Shown here in pieces: positions 2,204 through 38,751 of a stretch of 64,000 bases of DNA. The translations under genes and the position numbers were made by a program. The notes under the pieces are model-generated. The model made no database searches, was not told the origin of the DNA, and saw nothing but the letters and a program-made list of their open reading frames with translations. The stretch lies in the NCBI RefSeq assembly GCF_004028155.1, contig NZ_SBII01000001.1, forward strand, positions 248,001 through 312,000. Reading direction: 5' to 3'. The number at the start of each line of letters is the position of its first letter. The first letter of the stretch is position 1. Source of the stretch: Flavobacterium cerinum. GTDB taxonomy: Bacteria; Bacteroidota; Bacteroidia; Flavobacteriales; Flavobacteriaceae.

Positions 2204-2965
2204 ATGAAAGCAACCATACAACATAATGGGGCAACATTCACTGTTGACCTTTCTCAGCCCATAGATATATCGATCCCTCTCACGAATAATGAGCAGAATC
2301 CTATTGCCTGGTACATTGATAAGCCGGTTATAGAGCCTGTAAAAATGGGTGATTGGATAGGAAAGGTTAGTGAAGGCTCGTCGACCAACTTTAATAATAT
2401 TTTCTTTAACCCGCACGGTCACGGTACGCATACCGAATGCCTGGGGCATATTACCCGCGATTTTTACAGTATCAATCAGGCACTGAAACAGTTTTTTTTT
2501 ATAGCAGAACTTGTATCGGTACAACCGGAAGAACAGGGTGAAGATCTTGTAATTACCAAATTACAAATTGAAAAGGCATTGAACGGTAAAACACCTGAAG
2601 CTTTGGTCATCCAAACACTTCCTAATACGTTAGACAAAAAATCAAAGAATTACAGTAATACCAATCCGCCTTACATTGAAGAGGCTGGAGCTGTATACAT
2701 CCGCGAATGCGGCATAAAACATTTACTGATCGACCTGCCAAGTGTAGACAGGGAACAGGATGAAGGTAAGTTGTTAGCACACAAAGCATTTTGGAATGTT
2801 AAAGATGTAAACAGTCTTAATGCCGATGCTCGACATGATGCTACAATAACCGAAATGGTTTTTATAAAAGATGAGGTTAAAGATGGTAGTTACCTGCTTA
2901 ATTTACAGATCGCTTCTTTTGAAAACGATGCAAGTCCAAGTAAACCTACATTATACAAACTATAA
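2204..2965 (+). CDS. Cyclase family protein (kynurenine formamidase-like metal hydrolase)
   Basis: The 253-residue protein carries the metal-binding signature of the cyclase / arylformamidase fold: H71, H73, H76, E78 and H82 in the HGHGTHTECLGH segment. The usual motif is HxGTHxDxxxH, so the Asp is replaced by Glu. Family members hydrolyse formyl amides such as N-formylkynurenine or act on polyketide and isatin-type substrates; no kynurenine pathway neighbours are seen, so the substrate is unknown. It follows hemW by 11 bp. Its stop codon overlaps the ATG of the DUF4260 gene by one base (TAATG), so these two genes are very likely translated from one message. Confidence 0.8.
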   Translation: MKATIQHNGATFTVDLSQPIDISIPLTNNEQNPIAWYIDKPVIEPVKMGDWIGKVSEGSSTNFNNIFFNPHGHGTHTECLGHITRDFYSINQALKQFFFIAELVSVQPEEQGEDLVITKLQIEKALNGKTPEALVIQTLPNTLDKKSKNYSNTNPPYIEEAGAVYIRECGIKHLLIDLPSVDREQDEGKLLAHKAFWNVKDVNSLNADARHDATITEMVFIKDEVKDGSYLLNLQIASFENDASPSKPTLYKL

Positions 2966-3315
2966 TGAACACAATAATAAAGCTCGAAGAAGCAATGTTG
3001 TTTGGTTTGGGTATCTATTTATTCAGCCTGCTGGATTATACCTGGTGGTGGTTTCCTGCATTACTGCTTGTGCCTGATCTTTCTATGATAGGTTATGCTT
3101 TTGGGAATAGAGCAGGGGCATGGACATACAATATTGTACACCATAGAGGCGTTGCTGTAATCATGTACCTTGTCGGGATCTATCTAAACAATACTGCTTT
3201 ACAGCTAGCAGGGGTCATTTTATTTTCGCATTCCTGTTTCGACAGGATGCTGGGATATGGACTTAAATATGAAAAAGGGTTTAAGTTTACCCATTTAGGC
3301 GAAATCGGGAAATAG
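2965..3315 (+). CDS. DUF4260 family small membrane protein
   Basis: The 116-residue protein has three or four hydrophobic segments (about residues 11-38, 59-75 and 78-90) with the pattern ALLLVPDLSMIGYAFG, YNIVHH and SCFDRMLGYGLKY characteristic of DUF4260. No biochemical role is established for this family. The start overlaps the stop of the preceding gene by one base, indicating translational coupling. It is the last intact gene of the ruvC-hemW strand run; 50 bp downstream begins the truncated copy of the mmcQ gene. Confidence 0.8.
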   Translation: MNTIIKLEEAMLFGLGIYLFSLLDYTWWWFPALLLVPDLSMIGYAFGNRAGAWTYNIVHHRGVAVIMYLVGIYLNNTALQLAGVILFSHSCFDRMLGYGLKYEKGFKFTHLGEIGK

Positions 3316-3365
3316 ATTTTAAGTAAGGAGATTTAGACATCTCATTAACTAAGAAATTTTAAAAG

Positions 3366-3452
3366 AATATGAACATACAGGCCTTTTATGATTACTGTTT
3401 ATCCAAGAAGGGAGTAACCGAACATTTTCCGTTTGATGAAGAAACGCTGGTA
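3366..3452 (+). repeat. 87-bp direct repeat, left copy (flank of inserted cassette)
   Basis: This segment matches 5721-5807 at 85 of 87 positions by eye. It starts 3 nt before the ATG of the truncated mmcQ copy and ends at codon 28. Identity stops sharply at both ends. The pair brackets about 2.27 kb containing three minus-strand genes. Confidence 0.9.
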
Positions 3453-3458
3453 ACTTAG
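3369..3458 (+). pseudogene. Truncated 5' copy of the mmcQ/yjbR gene (28 codons)
   Basis: From the ATG at 3369 the reading frame encodes 28 residues identical to the start of the intact gene at 5724, then diverges after codon 28 (ctggta) and meets a TAG stop one codon later. Two nucleotide differences from the intact copy, at codon 18 (GAA/GAG) and codon 26 (ACG/ACA), are both synonymous. The sequence upstream of the ATG is unlike that upstream of 5724, apart from the three bases AAT. This is the left flank of the inserted cassette and is too short to be a functional protein. Confidence 0.85.
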
Positions 3459-3532
3459 TAGAAAATGGGGTGGGTGCTATTAGAATGTCCATGAGAATAC
3501 CAATGCCGAAAAAGCAGATAAGATAATATTAT

Positions 3533-3556
3533 AAAAGCCAGCAACTGCTGGCTTTT
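3533..3556. terminator. Intrinsic terminator of the inserted three-gene cassette
   Basis: AAAAGCCAGC - AACT - GCTGGCTTTT is a perfect 10-bp stem with A/T runs on both sides, so it can act in both directions. It sits 1 nt past the stop codon of the minus-strand 63-residue gene and would end that operon. Confidence 0.85.
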
Positions 3557-3557
3557 C

Positions 3558-3749
3558 TTATTGCTGACTGTATATTGCTTGTTCCAACTCACCTAAACGG
3601 AACTTGAGAGAATTCATTGTTCCTGTCATTTCTCTCATCATTTCAATTTGTACAAATATCAAAAACTCTTGTACATTTTCATCAGAATCTTTTTTAATCA
3701 AAGCCTTGAACTGGCTTTTTTTTACTTCGTAGTATTCATCGTAACTCAT
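3558..3749 (-). CDS. Small 63-residue hypothetical protein, last gene of the cassette
   Basis: I do not recognise this protein. It is charged and predicted helical, with a run rich in K, D and E (residues 8-27) and a hydrophobic/methionine-rich middle (FLIFVQIEMMREM) followed by a leucine-spaced tail that could form a coiled coil. It has no signal peptide or membrane helix. It begins 11 nt after the stop of the putAbiC-like gene and is followed at once by a terminator, so it is the third gene of the same transcript. A regulatory or antitoxin-like role is possible from size and position only. Confidence 0.6.
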   Translation of the reverse strand: MSYDEYYEVKKSQFKALIKKDSDENVQEFLIFVQIEMMREMTGTMNSLKFRLGELEQAIYSQQ

Positions 3750-3760
3750 AGTTGGTGGTT

Positions 3761-4810
3761 TTAATTGGTTTGTTGATCTGTTTTATATATTAATAGTTTA
3801 ATATTTTCGATTTCTTTGTTACATTGGATTACATTCATGCCTGTTAAAAATAACTCTTTTGTCATTACAAAATTGAATACTTTTAACTCCAATAAATATT
3901 GGCCAAATTCTCTTGTAGATGTTCCAGTCATTAATTTGTTATATAAGAGAACTTTTTCTTGATTGGTGAATGCATTTTTAATATATCGCTGTGTATTAAT
4001 TTCTTCTGGTTGAGAATGATATAATAAATCAAAAATCGCATATACCTGATTGAAATAGGCATCCAAAAATATTTCGTATTCTTTGTAAATTACTCTGTAT
4101 GCTCTTTCATAAACATCTATTTTAGATTCAAAATCTAAAAAATAAAAATAAATATTGGCAATTCTTTTCCAATACTTACTTCTCGCCATATCAGTTTCTT
4201 CCGTTGTGTATTCTTCATTTCCAAAATTATCATACAAATAATTATCATTCCTGTTGGCAATCAAATACTCTCTTAACTCTCTTCCTTTTATAATTCGCTC
4301 TTCTTCATTATATACCCTTTTATCATATAAACTAATGAATTGTGCATAATCTGAATCACTAACCTCTTCTGGTATGCTTGATAATATTGAAAAAACATAA
4401 TTTTCTCTGTAGATAATTTCTTTTTGATTCATTATATATTCCTTTAGAATATATCTGAAAATATGATACCCCTTGATTTCCTCACCTCCTCTATCAATTA
4501 CAAAATTTGATATGTTGTTTCTAAGGCTTTCAAACATCCCAGCTACCTGACTATGTATAAATTGATTCTGGGTGAGTCTATTAGCTTTTATTTGTTCTTT
4601 AAAAGCAACATAAACTAATATGAAGCCAATAAGTGTAAATAGTGGAGCTATTAATTGTGCGATGTTGACACCAAATTCAAATTTTTGTTTGCTATCAAGA
4701 GGAATATCAGTGGCAGGAAAGAAATAAATTGCTGGTGTCGCTGCAATAATAAGTGCAATACACAATCCCATTCCTTCCAGTCTGTTAAAAATCAGATTCT
4801 TGCCTATCAT
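3761..4810 (-). CDS. Membrane protein resembling putative phage abortive infection family (putAbiC-like)
   Basis: The 349-residue protein starts with two membrane helices (about residues 16-33 and 49-68), then the segment VAFKEQIKAN and a long helical cytoplasmic region with GMFESLRNNISNF and a GYHIFRYILKEY block. This layout (two helices, a FxxQ-x-x-AN hinge, an FE..LL..H-like helix and a GxxxF block) is what I associate with the putAbiC family, whose members are linked to phage exclusion by annotation rather than biochemistry. Its start overlaps the stop of the upstream gene by 4 nt (ATGA). It is AT-rich: two 60-base lines counted by hand (4081-4200) have 23% and 27% G+C. Family assignment is from pattern memory and moderate. 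Confidence 0.5.
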   Translation of the reverse strand: MIGKNLIFNRLEGMGLCIALIIAATPAIYFFPATDIPLDSKQKFEFGVNIAQLIAPLFTLIGFILVYVAFKEQIKANRLTQNQFIHSQVAGMFESLRNNISNFVIDRGGEEIKGYHIFRYILKEYIMNQKEIIYRENYVFSILSSIPEEVSDSDYAQFISLYDKRVYNEEERIIKGRELREYLIANRNDNYLYDNFGNEEYTTEETDMARSKYWKRIANIYFYFLDFESKIDVYERAYRVIYKEYEIFLDAYFNQVYAIFDLLYHSQPEEINTQRYIKNAFTNQEKVLLYNKLMTGTSTREFGQYLLELKVFNFVMTKELFLTGMNVIQCNKEIENIKLLIYKTDQQTN

Positions 4811-5595
4811 TGTAATTTTTGTAATATTTGAGATACTTGTACAAGTACTTTGGTAGCATCAGAAACTTCAAATTCAGTACTACCTTCTGCATGTACCACC
4901 TTATTCTTTTGGTTTCTCAGAGCAGAAAGAAATTGAACCTCACTTATGTCTAATATACCTTCTTTTAATATAAAAGACATGAATTCATTATATCTATATT
5001 CAGAAGCTCTATGACCTTTCTTTTCTAAATTTCTTTTAATAGAAGCGATCAAAACATTATACATTTCAAGAATAGCATGATGATAATAGCTATCGTTAAT
5101 TAAATTCTTAGCACGTTCTAAATGGTCAATTTCGCTAATTGCTTTTTGTTCTTCTGTGCGTTGTTTTCTTGCTTCGCTAATTTGCAATATGGTTCTATAT
5201 AATTGGACAATTATTAATATGAAACTTAATGTTGTTATAGATATCTTGTATATATCTGACTGGCTATTTTTAATAATAAAACTTACTAAAAAACATAATC
5301 CAATTATAATAGGCGATAATAATATGACGCAAAAAATTATAAATCCGACTTTTATAAGTATGTTCCAAAGTTTCCACCCTCCAATTTTAGTATCTCTTAG
5401 TGCTAATTCCAACACATAGAAATATAAAGATATTGAAAAACCAATAATACATGCCAAACAAATGTCAGCAAGACTCAATTGTACATATCCAAAATCTAAT
5501 ATTATTTTACTGATTTCCTCTTTAAATGCACTAAAGGATAACACGAGTGTGACAAATCCTAGAATGATTTCATATTTACCTTTTAGCTTTTCCAT
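4807..5595 (-). CDS. Four-helix membrane protein with a HEPN-like C-terminal domain
   Basis: The 262-residue protein has four hydrophobic segments (about residues 8-25, 39-67, 77-108 and 115-135), then a soluble helical region from about 145. That region ends with an ALRNQKNKVVHAEG motif (R227 to H235), similar to the RN...H signature of HEPN RNase/nucleotide-binding domains and DUF4145-like proteins. In the closest alignment the usual Arg is a Lys (K-N-K-V-V-H), or the R-to-H gap is longer than the usual 4-6 residues, so nuclease activity is uncertain. It is the first gene of a tightly packed minus-strand operon with the putAbiC-like gene. Membrane-anchored sensor plus effector pairs of this kind are common in phage defence; here that is inference. 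Confidence 0.55.
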   Translation of the reverse strand: MEKLKGKYEIILGFVTLVLSFSAFKEEISKIILDFGYVQLSLADICLACIIGFSISLYFYVLELALRDTKIGGWKLWNILIKVGFIIFCVILLSPIIIGLCFLVSFIIKNSQSDIYKISITTLSFILIIVQLYRTILQISEARKQRTEEQKAISEIDHLERAKNLINDSYYHHAILEMYNVLIASIKRNLEKKGHRASEYRYNEFMSFILKEGILDISEVQFLSALRNQKNKVVHAEGSTEFEVSDATKVLVQVSQILQKLQ

Positions 5596-5694
5596 TTATC
5601 AAAATCTTGTAAGTAAATTAACAATATTTTGATGTAATGTGAGCCTTTTCTTCTGATAAATTTCATTCATCTGTTATTGCTTAATATTATGCTG

Positions 5695-5702
5695 TAGCTT
5701 TG
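5695..5702 (+). promoter_or_regulatory. Candidate -7 box (TAnnTTTG) for the intact mmcQ gene
   Basis: TAGCTTTG ends 21 nt before the ATG at 5724. A TTG lies 15 nt upstream (5677-5679), a shorter spacing than usual. It lies inside the segment between the two 87-bp repeats, so the intact gene would be driven by DNA that came with, or was formed by, the insertion. Confidence 0.35.
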
Positions 5703-5720
5703 TAGAACCTTATCAATTTA

Positions 5721-5807
5721 AATATGAACATACAGGCCTTTTATGATTACTGTTTATCCAAGAAGGGAGTAACCGAGCATTTTCCGTTTGATGAAGAAAC
5801 ACTGGTA
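5721..5807 (+). repeat. 87-bp direct repeat, right copy (start of intact mmcQ)
   Basis: Right partner of 3366-3452, with 85 of 87 bases identical. It contains codons 1-28 of the intact mmcQ/yjbR gene. Both differences are silent third-position changes. Confidence 0.9.
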
Positions 5808-6095
5808 TTTAAAGTAGGCGGAAAGATGTTTGCTTTATCATCCCTTAAGCAATGGGAAAAAGGAGAACCATCTATAAACCTTAAATGCGATCCCGAAAGG
5901 GCTTTAGAGTTAAGAGCAGAGTATGAAGCTATTGAGGCGGGCTACCACATGAGTAAAGTGCACTGGAACACAGTAACGGTTCATGGCGATGTATCGCTGT
6001 CGCTGCTTAAAGAACTGATAGACCATTCGTATGATCTTGTTTTTAAAAGCCTCACAAAAAAGATACAGGCAGAAATAATGGAAATTAATAATTAG
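5724..6095 (+). CDS. MmcQ/YjbR family DNA-binding-fold protein
   Basis: The 123-residue protein has the full MmcQ/YjbR (CyaY-like) pattern: YDYCLSKKGVTEHFPF at the N-terminus, LVFKVGGKMFAL, a central KCDPERALELRAEYEAIEAG and the conserved HMSKVHWNTV segment before a C-terminal SYDLV. Members have a double-wing DNA-binding fold, but their cellular role is not established. The length is normal and the frame intact. Its first 28 codons are duplicated at 3369, showing that an insertion occurred at or beside this gene while a complete copy was retained. It is followed 54 bp later by the PH/SHOCT gene on the same strand. Confidence 0.85.
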   Translation: MNIQAFYDYCLSKKGVTEHFPFDEETLVFKVGGKMFALSSLKQWEKGEPSINLKCDPERALELRAEYEAIEAGYHMSKVHWNTVTVHGDVSLSLLKELIDHSYDLVFKSLTKKIQAEIMEINN

Positions 6096-6149: not shown

Positions 6150-6902
6150 ATGAAAGAGCATATAAAAAACTTCCTTAACGAAGAGCAGGACCCTAAAGCA
6201 GTAGAAAAGATCACATCAAAACTTAATGATATTTTGATGAGAGGTGAAGAGATCGGCTATATAGGCGTTCAGAAAAAGCCGGCGATCAATGTTTTTCCTG
6301 ATAGTATTGTGCTTACTAATAAAAGGATTATTATTTGTAAGCCAAAAAATCTTGGATTGTCAATGGACTTTACAGATTTTCCGTGGACGCAGGTTTCGGC
6401 AACATTTGTAAAAGAAAACATACTGGGATCTGAATTCTCTTTCACAACAACAACAGATCTTACAGTTTCTATAGATTACATACCAAAGATACAGGCAAGA
6501 AAAATAAATACGTTTGCTAAAGAGCAGCTGGAGCTTTTAAAAGAAGTCCATGTACCTGCTCAGCCTGAATCTGTTTACACTGAGCCACAAGTTACTCCTG
6601 AACCTGCTGCTGTAGTAGAAGAGGCTGAAGAAATTGAGGAAGTAGAGACAGAAGAAGTGAACGACTTTGCCGAAATAATAAACAATACTGGAATGCAGCC
6701 TGCTGCACCGGTATACAATGAAGTACCTGCGCAACCTGCTGCACCTGCACAGGAAAAAAGTGGTAAAGACAAAACATTGAGCGAACTTAGTAAAGAAGAG
6801 CTTTTTGATAAATTGCAGAACTATAAAAAACTGCTGGATAATGGCCTGATCCTGCAAGGCGAATATGACGCCTTGAAAAGAGAGATATTGGCTTACCTAT
6901 AA
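6150..6902 (+). CDS. PH-domain and SHOCT-domain protein
   Basis: The 250-residue protein begins with a bacterial PH-like domain (about residues 30-130; SIVLTNKRIIICKPK and DFPWTQVSATFV are typical of the YokE-like group). A proline/glutamate/alanine-rich linker follows (about 135-205), and a C-terminal SHOCT helix pair ends the protein (ELFDKLQNYKKLLDNGLI, then a glutamate-tyrosine-rich second helix, about 213-250). SHOCT domains mediate oligomerisation; the PH fold may bind lipid or protein. No signal peptide or membrane helix is seen. The acidic repeat-rich linker gives long open frames on the other strand that are not genes. The FabZ-like gene begins 14 nt downstream. Confidence 0.8.
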   Translation: MKEHIKNFLNEEQDPKAVEKITSKLNDILMRGEEIGYIGVQKKPAINVFPDSIVLTNKRIIICKPKNLGLSMDFTDFPWTQVSATFVKENILGSEFSFTTTTDLTVSIDYIPKIQARKINTFAKEQLELLKEVHVPAQPESVYTEPQVTPEPAAVVEEAEEIEEVETEEVNDFAEIINNTGMQPAAPVYNEVPAQPAAPAQEKSGKDKTLSELSKEELFDKLQNYKKLLDNGLILQGEYDALKREILAYL

Positions 6903-6916
6903 TCTTGATAGGTGTT

Positions 6917-7360
6917 ATGAGTAAAGCTATTGAAGAACTTATTCCGCACAGAGCACCATTTTTGTTTGTAGATGAAATATTGTCTGTAAGTAATGAAGAG
7001 ATTGTTGCTGTAAATACATTCGATGATAAAGAGAACGATTTACTGAAAGGAAGTTTTACGGGATTTAATTTTATACCGGGTACAATCCTTATAGAATCGA
7101 TGGCACAATGTGGTGGAGCAGGAGTAAGGCTTCTTGGAATTACCAATGGTGTTTTTGCACTGGCACATATAGAGACGGCTCAATTTCTTAAAGGAGTTGA
7201 GTATGGTATACAGGTAAAATATATAATAAAGAACTTACGCCTTAGCGAAAAGATCATCAAACAGCAGGGTAAAGCTTATGTTGGAGATGATGTTGTATTA
7301 GAAGCTTCATGGATGAGTATAAGGATTGAAGCTCCGCAAACGCCGGAAGAAACGAAATAA
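6917..7360 (+). CDS. FabZ-like 3-hydroxyacyl-ACP dehydratase (hot-dog fold)
   Basis: The product (147 residues from this start) carries the FabZ/FabA hot-dog signature: IPHRAPFLFVDEI with the catalytic-type His (H11), and PGTILIESMAQCGG with the conserved acidic residue. The usual GHFP..P stretch is altered to TGFNFIP. FabZ itself dehydrates 3-hydroxyacyl-ACP in fatty acid synthesis; this shorter, divergent member may serve another acyl substrate. I chose the ATG at 6917 rather than an in-frame TTG at 6905 because an AGGTG sits 5 nt before it and the conserved domain begins at once. It follows the PH/SHOCT gene closely and converges on DUF4407. Confidence 0.8.
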   Translation: MSKAIEELIPHRAPFLFVDEILSVSNEEIVAVNTFDDKENDLLKGSFTGFNFIPGTILIESMAQCGGAGVRLLGITNGVFALAHIETAQFLKGVEYGIQVKYIIKNLRLSEKIIKQQGKAYVGDDVVLEASWMSIRIEAPQTPEETK

Positions 7361-7368
7361 CAGAAAAC

Positions 7369-7397
7369 AAAAATCCCACGCTTAGCGTGGGATTTTT
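7369..7397. terminator. Bidirectional terminator between FabZ-like and DUF4407 genes
   Basis: AAAATCCCACGC - TTA - GCGTGGGATTTT forms a perfect 12-bp stem with A and T runs on either side. It lies between two converging genes and can end both transcripts. Confidence 0.9.
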
Positions 7398-7399
7398 TA

Positions 7400-8500
7400 T
7401 TACATAACATTCTTTTGTTTATTCGAGAAGCTGTCAGCCTGCATTTCAAGAAGTTCAATGGCTCTTTTCTTTTTGTAATTGTAGAGTTCCCTGTCTTCCC
7501 TTATCTCTCCATACACGTCATCATAGATGCCGGCATCGGTAGTACGCATTAATTCACGCTGGTAGTTATTCTGAGCCAGGTTTGTTTTAATAGCCATTTC
7601 GCTGTCTTCCAGCTTAAAGTCATATTCACCTTTTGGAGAAAGCAATTTGGCTATAATAGGCGATGTCTCTATAGCAAGGAACAGCAGCATTATAAAAAAC
7701 GATGGCAGCCATGGCAGTTTGTTAAGCGCATTAATTCGTGCCATAAGTCCATCAAAGCCATCAATAATAGGCTGGCTATCGATTACTTTTTTATCAAGAT
7801 CGGCCTGTAATGTCTCGCCTTGTTTCTCTTTAGCCGCGATCTTGTCTAGATTGGTTTTACGCAACGCTTCCAGTTCCAGTAGCGCTGCATCATGTTTCTG
7901 ACGCTTTTCATTATACACGGGCCCTTTGCCTAATTTCAGTGTGCCTTTTGTGCCTTCAGCTTCGGTAATATAGGTGCCGTATAGTTCGTTAACTTCTTTC
8001 TCTTTTTTGGTGATTGCCGATTTTAAGCTGTCAGTTTCTGCTTTGTTCTTAGCAAGATCTCCCTGAAAAAAATTGGCAACCTGCTTTTTGTTTGCCAGTG
8101 CCATATCGTTCTTTTCTTTAAGCAGCACGGTGTCGATCTCCTTTTGAAAAATTTTAATTTCAAGCGGTTTGGAGATAACAATAGCAATGATCATGGCTAA
8201 AAGAATACGCGGTGTAGCCTGAAGGAATTCCTGACCTATACGGTCTCTTTTTCGGATGGTAGAAACAATAAAACGGTCAAGGTTAAAAATAAGCAGCCCC
8301 CAAACCAGTCCAAAAAATGTAGCCATAAATACATTGTCGAAAACAGTGTAAAGAGCATAGCTCGCAGCTATCCAAGCCATAATTGCAGTAAAGAATACCG
8401 TGGCACCGATACCTGCATACTTGTTCTGTTCTCCATTCGAACAGCTGTAGATGAGGTCTTTATCTGCCCCCGAACAGATAATAAAAAAACGCTTTAACAT
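7400..8500 (-). CDS. DUF4407 family membrane protein
   Basis: The 366-residue protein has the DUF4407 layout: an N-terminal FFIICSGADKDLI segment, membrane helices at about residues 32-52, 58-75 and 96-112, a long charged coiled-coil loop (about 125-255, rich in K, E and D), and a further helix near 265-285 before a cytoplasmic helical tail. The NLDRFIV motif after the second helix is conserved. No function is established. It is transcribed alone; TATTTTTG (8533-8540, minus strand) about 32 nt upstream is a candidate -7 box. Confidence 0.8.
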   Translation of the reverse strand: MLKRFFIICSGADKDLIYSCSNGEQNKYAGIGATVFFTAIMAWIAASYALYTVFDNVFMATFFGLVWGLLIFNLDRFIVSTIRKRDRIGQEFLQATPRILLAMIIAIVISKPLEIKIFQKEIDTVLLKEKNDMALANKKQVANFFQGDLAKNKAETDSLKSAITKKEKEVNELYGTYITEAEGTKGTLKLGKGPVYNEKRQKHDAALLELEALRKTNLDKIAAKEKQGETLQADLDKKVIDSQPIIDGFDGLMARINALNKLPWLPSFFIMLLFLAIETSPIIAKLLSPKGEYDFKLEDSEMAIKTNLAQNNYQRELMRTTDAGIYDDVYGEIREDRELYNYKKKRAIELLEMQADSFSNKQKNVM

Positions 8501-14838: not shown

Positions 14839-14920
14839 GCGGGTGTGGTGAAATTGGTAGACACGCCAGACTTAGGATCTGGTGCCTCACGGTGTGAAGG
14901 TTCGAGTCCTTTCACCCGCA
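14839..14920 (+). tRNA. tRNA-Leu (anticodon UAG), copy 1
   Basis: 82-nt class II tRNA. The acceptor stem GCGGGTG pairs with CACCCGC, with discriminator A. The anticodon loop CTTAGGA lies between CCAGA and TCTGG, giving TAG. It has a long variable arm and a TTCGAGTCC T loop. CCA is not encoded. Identical to the copy at 15096. Confidence 0.97.
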
Positions 14921-14926
14921 CAACTT

Positions 14927-14955
14927 AAAAGCCTCTGATGTCTCAGAGGCTTTTT
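14927..14955 (+). terminator. Terminator of tRNA-Leu copy 1
   Basis: GCCTCTGA - TGTC - TCAGAGGC followed by five T. Begins 6 nt after the tRNA. Confidence 0.9.
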
Positions 14956-15024
14956 CTATTATATCCCCTCAATATTCGCTAATAATTTTTTTACTTTTTT
15001 GAGATAATTCAGCCTTTGTTTGCT

Positions 15025-15053
15025 TTGAAATTACAAAAGTAGTTGTATATTTG
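15025..15053 (+). promoter_or_regulatory. Promoter of tRNA-Leu copy 2
   Basis: TTG (15025-15027), 18-nt spacer, TATATTTG (15046-15053). The same geometry as copy 1, so each tRNA has its own promoter. Confidence 0.75.
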
Positions 15054-15095
15054 CACTCTCATAATGAAACAAATTATCGGTTTTATTATCTGCCT

Positions 15096-15177
15096 GCGGG
15101 TGTGGTGAAATTGGTAGACACGCCAGACTTAGGATCTGGTGCCTCACGGTGTGAAGGTTCGAGTCCTTTCACCCGCA
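15096..15177 (+). tRNA. tRNA-Leu (anticodon UAG), copy 2
   Basis: Identical over all 82 nt to the copy at 14839, 257 nt downstream of it. Same stems, UAG anticodon, no encoded CCA. The pair is a tandem duplication in which promoter, tRNA and terminator were all duplicated while the spacers diverged. Confidence 0.97.
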
Positions 15178-15183
15178 CAACTC

Positions 15184-38382: not shown

Positions 38383-38453
38383 TGGTCTATGGTGTAATGG
38401 TAACACTACTGTTTTTGGTGCAGTCGTTCAAGGTTCGAGTCCTTGTGGACCAA
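38383..38453 (+). tRNA. tRNA-Gln (anticodon UUG), copy 1
   Basis: 71 nt. The acceptor TGGTCTA pairs with TGGACCA (one G-U), with discriminator A. Anticodon stem ACTGT/GCAGT has loop TTTTGGT, giving TTG. CCA is not encoded. Identical to the copy at 38678. Confidence 0.95.
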
Positions 38454-38461
38454 CAGAAAAA

Positions 38462-38488
38462 GTCTCTCTGCAATGAGAGGCTTTTTTT
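38462..38488 (+). terminator. Terminator of tRNA-Gln copy 1
   Basis: GTCTCTC and GAGAGGC stem, then seven T. Confidence 0.85.
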
Positions 38489-38677
38489 ATTTATAACCGT
38501 TTCAAAAAGATCGCTTTTTTGCTAAGTTTAAATCAAATTGCATCTTTTGATGTGTGGTTTTGGGTTTGAAGAGGTGTTTTGGTTTAGGAATAGGTTATTT
38601 GTTGTTTATTGAGTGTGTAAGTACATCTTGTGGTTGTTTTTGATATCAAGGAGACTTCGGGGTAGATTAAGATATAA

Positions 38678-38748
38678 TGGTCTATGGTGTAATGGTAACA
38701 CTACTGTTTTTGGTGCAGTCGTTCAAGGTTCGAGTCCTTGTGGACCAA
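38678..38748 (+). tRNA. tRNA-Gln (anticodon UUG), copy 2
   Basis: Identical over 71 nt to copy 1, 295 nt downstream of it. The similarity continues past the tRNA through the terminator and about 30 nt beyond, but not upstream. No TTG/TAnnTTTG promoter was found before this copy, so it may depend on read-through past the first terminator. Confidence 0.95.
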
Positions 38749-38751
38749 CAG

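Follow-up and report, generated by a model that had tools for sequence, protein, structure and literature searches.

A rare insertion at the start of mmcQ in Flavobacterium cerinum carries a candidate anti-phage cassette with two predicted membrane proteins

We analysed a stretch of 64,000 nucleotides of the Flavobacterium cerinum genome (contig NZ_SBII01000001.1, positions 248,001 to 312,000), called the window below, in which three minus-strand genes, here named p1, p2 and p3, are enclosed by a duplicated mmcQ start. This cassette is a rare insertion, and we lean, with somewhat better than even confidence, towards an abortive-infection anti-phage system made from two predicted membrane proteins, p1, which has a predicted HEPN domain, and p2, a putative divergent member of the putAbiC group. 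A sequence-only reading of the same DNA had proposed a phage-defence islet, and this proposal holds up as a candidate, whereas the defence role itself is suggested by protein family and gene neighbourhood. The gene layout that it described, including coordinates (Table 1), a 4-nt overlap between p1 and p2 and an 11-nt gap between p2 and p3, agrees with the list of open reading frames (ORFs), and all three frames are intact and tightly spaced. The genome comprises 4.1 Mb in 31 contigs, and since the cassette is located deep within a 634-kb contig (251-254 kb), this structure does not stem from a contig end.

The direct repeat of the mmcQ start that brackets the cassette, noticed before, was found again: the copies span 87 nt, are 98% identical and share a longest exact run of 56 bp. 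The two mismatches, at repeat positions 57 (A/G) and 81 (G/A), are both synonymous in the mmcQ frame. For comparison with relatives, 116 other Flavobacterium genomes supplied 117 mmcQ loci (L043-L079, L130-L209), and L213-L215 brought the total to 120. At least 2.4 kb of upstream DNA was present in 118 of these, the exceptions being L055 (1,073 bp) and L151 (257 bp), and the others of the 117 had at least 2,468 bp. At the 117 loci, p1, p2 and p3 gave no match at E 0.01, and no duplicated mmcQ start was found besides one 19-bp match in L178, which was taken as chance; L213-L215 agree on both points. With the cassette found at 0 of 120 other mmcQ loci, it is not something that the relatives all carry, and its proteins did not turn out to be members of housekeeping families. 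The nearest upstream gene among those tested at the 117 loci was a cyclase gene in 65, a DUF4260 gene in 48 and hemW in two; the remaining two were L151, with its short upstream sequence, and L186, which has other genes there. When the window flanks were joined without the insert, they aligned in one piece to three of the four relatives tried (G033, 75%; G290, 74%; G209, 71%), and in two pieces to the fourth, L215 (genome G285), which has no DUF4260 at the site. Because neither the cassette genes nor the duplication were found at the 120 other loci, and because the joined flanks align in one piece, the cassette is a rare insertion, and it probably arrived horizontally.

The DNA composition of the insert sets it apart, as claimed earlier, with 29.0% G+C against 37.7% for the whole window. 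Only two of 618 sliding windows of 2,268 bp were equally AT-rich (starts 3501 and 3601), and both overlap the insert. The G+C content at third codon positions (GC3) was 0.198 for p1 and 0.229 for p2, with 0.328 for hemW and 0.419 for the DUF4260 gene, and p3 is unremarkable in this respect (0.344). The operon had also been described as closed by a terminator; the hairpin just beyond p3 is real, while its function as operon terminator is only plausible, since two terminator-like sites were found against 0.9 ± 1.1 in shuffled sequence and the scan assigned this one to the plus strand. An Rfam scan of 3300-5900 gave no match, and the cassette DNA is single-copy within its own genome.

The HEPN-like character that had been attributed to p1 was borne out by its family, in which 23 of 31 members match DUF4145 and 15 of 31 match HEPN at E 0.01, and by a fold search in which the predicted model matches HEPN structures, suggesting that p1 has a HEPN fold. 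The N-terminus is strongly conserved in the family (KYEIILGFVTLxxSxSAFK-like), and there is no tryptophan among the invariant or nearly invariant columns. With p1 alone, Pfam returned only HEPN_Swt1 (E 0.096). The NCBIfam matches TIGR04402 (mob_CxxC_CxxC, E 0.0085) and NF046000 (E 0.081) were both far below cut-offs and were rejected. PHROGs gave p1 two matches to families without a known function: phrog_1027 (E 0.00041), which covers residues 90-155, where p1 is partly hydrophobic, and phrog_9828 (E 0.058). A search of PDB sequences gave one unrelated-looking match (E 0.14). A p1 profile search of 395 genomes of the phylum yielded five matches including p1 itself, the other four being partial (E 7.8e-23 to 5.1e-4), and there was no match in plasmids, phages or viral contigs.

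The second protein, p2, had been read as putAbiC-like. By itself it matched no Pfam family at E <= 1 and lies below the gathering cut-off of PF16872, yet p2 with three relatives aligned to four PF16872 carriers over 272 columns (hhalign 99.1%, E 1.4e-18, 17% identity), a comparison with four sequences a side that covers both helices and the C-terminal domain. Whereas an initial protein search retrieved p2 only, a profile search found six proteins including p2, two of which (P0035 and P0037) carry PF16872; the best three other matches are 23-26% identical to p2 over 74-85% of its length. PF16872 was detected in 4 of 10 scanned p2 relatives (L106, L115, L116 and L117), and was not detected in six, including the three full-length ones nearest to p2, which are those aligned with it against the four carriers. 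Since p2 itself never reaches Pfam, while hhalign and two of its profile relatives do match, we assign it by profiles only as a probable divergent putAbiC protein. A PF16872 search of its own genome was empty, as was the control of that search. Matches to p2 occur in 19 of 398 Flavobacterium genomes including its own, many over the two N-terminal helices only. The p2 model had a predicted local distance difference test (pLDDT) score of 75 and matched no solved structure at E 0.001 in the fold search; PDB sequences, plasmids and phages likewise gave no match. A viral contig (L080:4827-5684) contains a gene with p2-like N-terminal helices (31% over residues 47-113), on the strand opposite to the larger ORFs on either side. 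In genome G373 (L100:8164-8475) there is a C-terminal fragment of a p2 relative with 48% identity, apparently a lost copy, with transposase-like genes within a few kb.

For p3, no convincing relatives were found in scans including Pfam, PADLOC and NCBIfam, in viral contigs or in 299 genomes. Seven weak matches in these genomes besides its own (E 0.003-0.009) all fall inside frames of 672-689 codons and were taken as chance. The protein may be a regulator.

Some relatives of p1 and p2 lie beside defence genes. Five other p1 loci had long flanks (in L005 only 1.1 kb on one side), and at all five the p1 homologue is AT-rich compared to its surroundings. In L003 (Flavobacterium sp. LC2016-12) a Septu PtuA/PtuB pair (6329-8198) is located upstream of the p1 relative, approximately 1.8 kb away, and in L006 an AbiH gene lies 56 bp upstream. 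In L042 a weak HEPN-like gene adjoins the p1 relative; a prophage at this locus was rejected, as none of nine proteins matched PHROGs at E 0.001. Near the p1 relative in L005 are a RelA/SpoT gene, at 1.5 kb, and a gene for a phage-type integrase, at ~4.3 kb; nothing was recognised near the one in L004, judged by reading of the neighbours. No partner gene is constant at these five loci, and a profile scan of L001-L209, which goes beyond the earlier reading, found p1 and p2 relatives together in the window only. For p2-like genes, neighbours were listed for 17 loci, four of which (L105, L106, L116 and L117) were picked by eye and scanned. A type ISP restriction enzyme, AbiH, a short p2-like protein and GmrSD cluster in one Flavobacterium genome (L105:3162-10899), GmrSD also lies near the p2-like gene in L106, and LmuB does so in L117. 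In L116 (4300-11526) helicase, GIY-YIG, putAbiC and PD-(D/E)XK (PDC-S26) genes form an operon-like run, possibly a multi-gene defence locus.

In the proposed mechanism, p2 would act as an infection sensor in the inner membrane and activate the HEPN domain of p1, which would cut RNA on the predicted cytoplasmic face of this membrane, so that the infected cell is stopped, with dormancy or death as the outcome. The 4-nt gene overlap suggests that p1 and p2 are partners, and their translation is likely coupled through it; the trigger role of p2, RNA cleavage by p1 and the final arrest are each conjectural. Of 21 E. coli systems recovered by functional selection, six were found to have HEPN-like domains, and in the four cases that were mutagenised the systems depended on key residues of predicted domains (PMC9519451). 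Anantharaman et al. (2013, PMC3710099) proposed that other membrane HEPN proteins process RNA at the membrane. Two points weigh against this mechanism. One is the choice by eye of the four scanned p2 loci, a choice that favours defence, many of the other 13 looking ordinary by eye. The other, which goes beyond the earlier reading, is the HEPN motif Rx4-6H, which p1 lacks: it reads K230-NKVV-H235, whereas arginine and histidine are each present in 30 of 31 family members. The sequence RNLEKKGH at residue 188 fits the bare pattern but is off the motif's place in the family. With a lysine at position 230, the RNase step is uncertain, and catalysis is the weakest link of the explanation.

The main rival follows from this residue, by analogy with Csx28, a protein that carries the HEPN label. 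It holds that p1 has a HEPN domain with little or no catalytic activity, and that p1, with p2 as partner, assembles in the membrane into an oligomer or pore and so depolarises the cell. Csx28 is reported to depolarise the inner membrane in this way, as a pore of eight subunits (PMC12669027). The hydrophobic N-terminal helices of p1 would fit this, but H235 is retained, and since the RNxxAH motif is complete in both of the nearest relatives (71% and 67%), the loss of the arginine is not a trait of the lineage; we consider a pore unlikely. Neighbourhoods bear on a second alternative, a toxin-antitoxin-like or stress module that is kept for its own sake, p3 or p2 neutralising p1, with no anti-phage effect. 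HEPN-MNT pairs resemble toxin-antitoxin systems (PMC3710099), and the operon is compact and overlapping; however, putAbiC occurs in four p2 relatives, three of which are beside defence genes (L106, L116 and L117), and the p1 loci show no constant partner, which makes such a module improbable. We give little credence to the view that the cassette is what is left of a larger, decaying integrative element, or arose by chance recombination, and that its genes no longer function; the repeat flanks without a recombinase, K230 and the fragment in G373 would suit this view, but the three intact, tightly spaced frames would not.

As to how the abortive-infection candidate arrived, the flanking repeat and the re-supplied mmcQ start have the form of an integrative element. 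No integrase or recombinase was recognised among the ORFs of the insert; of three Phage_integrase genes in the genome, one is on the same contig ~340 kb away and two are on other contigs. Cassette DNA gave no match in plasmids. Since no integrase was recognised and the same event was seen at no other site examined, a single recombination event, in which foreign DNA brought along its own mmcQ start, is as likely as entry of an integrative element. A second match to the first 30 MmcQ residues occurs in 7 of 298 other genomes, and in the only two opened (G147 and G161) both copies are long. We found no support for mmcQ as a general insertion hotspot. The distance from mmcQ to the nearest tested upstream gene exceeds 500 bp at 15 of 117 loci, and the eight that were opened contain cellular-looking genes, with no recombinase recognised by reading. 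Gene content of this spacer varies, as similar 353-aa genes are present between DUF4260 and mmcQ in L067 (3438-4499) and L157 (3432-4493), with mmcQ turned to the plus strand. A bolder combination appears very improbable to us: a recombinase-free mobile defence islet of ~2.3 kb that enters the start of a core gene, keeps the host gene alive by bringing a working copy of the first 28 mmcQ codons with a promoter, and delivers an abortive-infection pair of two membrane proteins, whose HEPN partner has lost the catalytic arginine and works at the membrane by a different route.

The features are listed in Table 1. TAnnTTTG is the -7 promoter box of Bacteroidota; the weak match before mmcQ has no -33 box partner at the spacings tried. 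Elsewhere in the window, at 14839-15178 and 38383-38749, there are two pairs of tRNA genes with the same anticodon (Leu tag, Gln ttg).

Table 1. Features at the mmcQ insertion, in window coordinates
Feature	Position	Strand	Remarks
DUF4260 gene	2965-3315	+	adjoins mmcQ in relatives with empty site
Left repeat copy	3366-3452	+	mmcQ start; reduced to a remnant of 29 codons closed by TAG (3369-3458)
Insert	3453-5720		AT-rich; ~2.3 kb; no recombinase gene recognised among ORFs
Hairpin, terminator-like	3533-3556		just beyond p3; also found as inverted-repeat pair
p3	3558-3749	-	63 aa; no convincing relatives
p2	3761-4810	-	349 aa; two predicted membrane helices; putative divergent putAbiC-group member
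p1	4807-5595	-	262 aa; 3-4 N-terminal hydrophobic helices and predicted C-terminal HEPN domain (residues 145-262); motif K230-NKVV-H235
TAGCTTTG	5695-5702	+	weak match to -7 promoter box TAnnTTTG, 21 nt before mmcQ ATG
Right repeat copy	5721-5807	+	start of intact mmcQ
Intact mmcQ (YjbR family)	5724-6095	+	target gene; PF04237, E 3e-31

If the defence role is true, the cassette contributes a family of membrane HEPN proteins, seen to date in Bacteroidota wherever the host is named, and p1 with the divergent putAbiC protein p2 would be a candidate pair missed by the defence library used. It would also let nature answer whether the arginine is required for HEPN defence. The insertion further illustrates how a core gene can harbour a candidate defence islet with an intact gene copy left. 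In a partial library, the top search results contained no paper that deals with this gene set or with insertion at mmcQ.

Compared to known systems, the insertion resembles SXT (at prfC) and IMEVchUSA3 (at dusA), which enter a housekeeping gene at its 5' end and re-supply its start at the far junction (PMC8409611); unlike these, the cassette is only 2.3 kb, has no recognised integrase or transfer gene, and offers only a candidate box as promoter for mmcQ. Septu, AbiH, GmrSD, type ISP and Lamassu-like loci are neighbours of some p1 or p2 relatives, and PADLOC-DB 2.0.0 models match none of p1, p2 and p3 (E <= 1). Like Csx28 of Cas13b systems, whose pore is described in PMC12669027, p1 is a small, predicted membrane protein with a putative tie to defence, and Csx28 was not among the fold-search matches listed for p1. 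Section 15 of PMC3710099 distinguishes three groups of membrane HEPN proteins, with one transmembrane helix and a WP signature, with one transmembrane helix after an all-alpha domain, or with an N-terminal HEPN domain, two transmembrane helices and a Zn ribbon. As in p1, HEPN is predicted to be cytoplasmic on an inner-membrane protein, with RNA as the proposed target, but the C-terminal HEPN domain of p1, after three to four helices, places it outside all three groups as described there. In layout p2 resembles putAbiC (PF16872), with a pair of N-terminal helices ahead of a C-terminal part that is helical too, but it has no Pfam match of its own and no close relatives. The candidate system is a variation on kinds of protein already known, a predicted membrane HEPN protein plus a probable divergent putAbiC protein.
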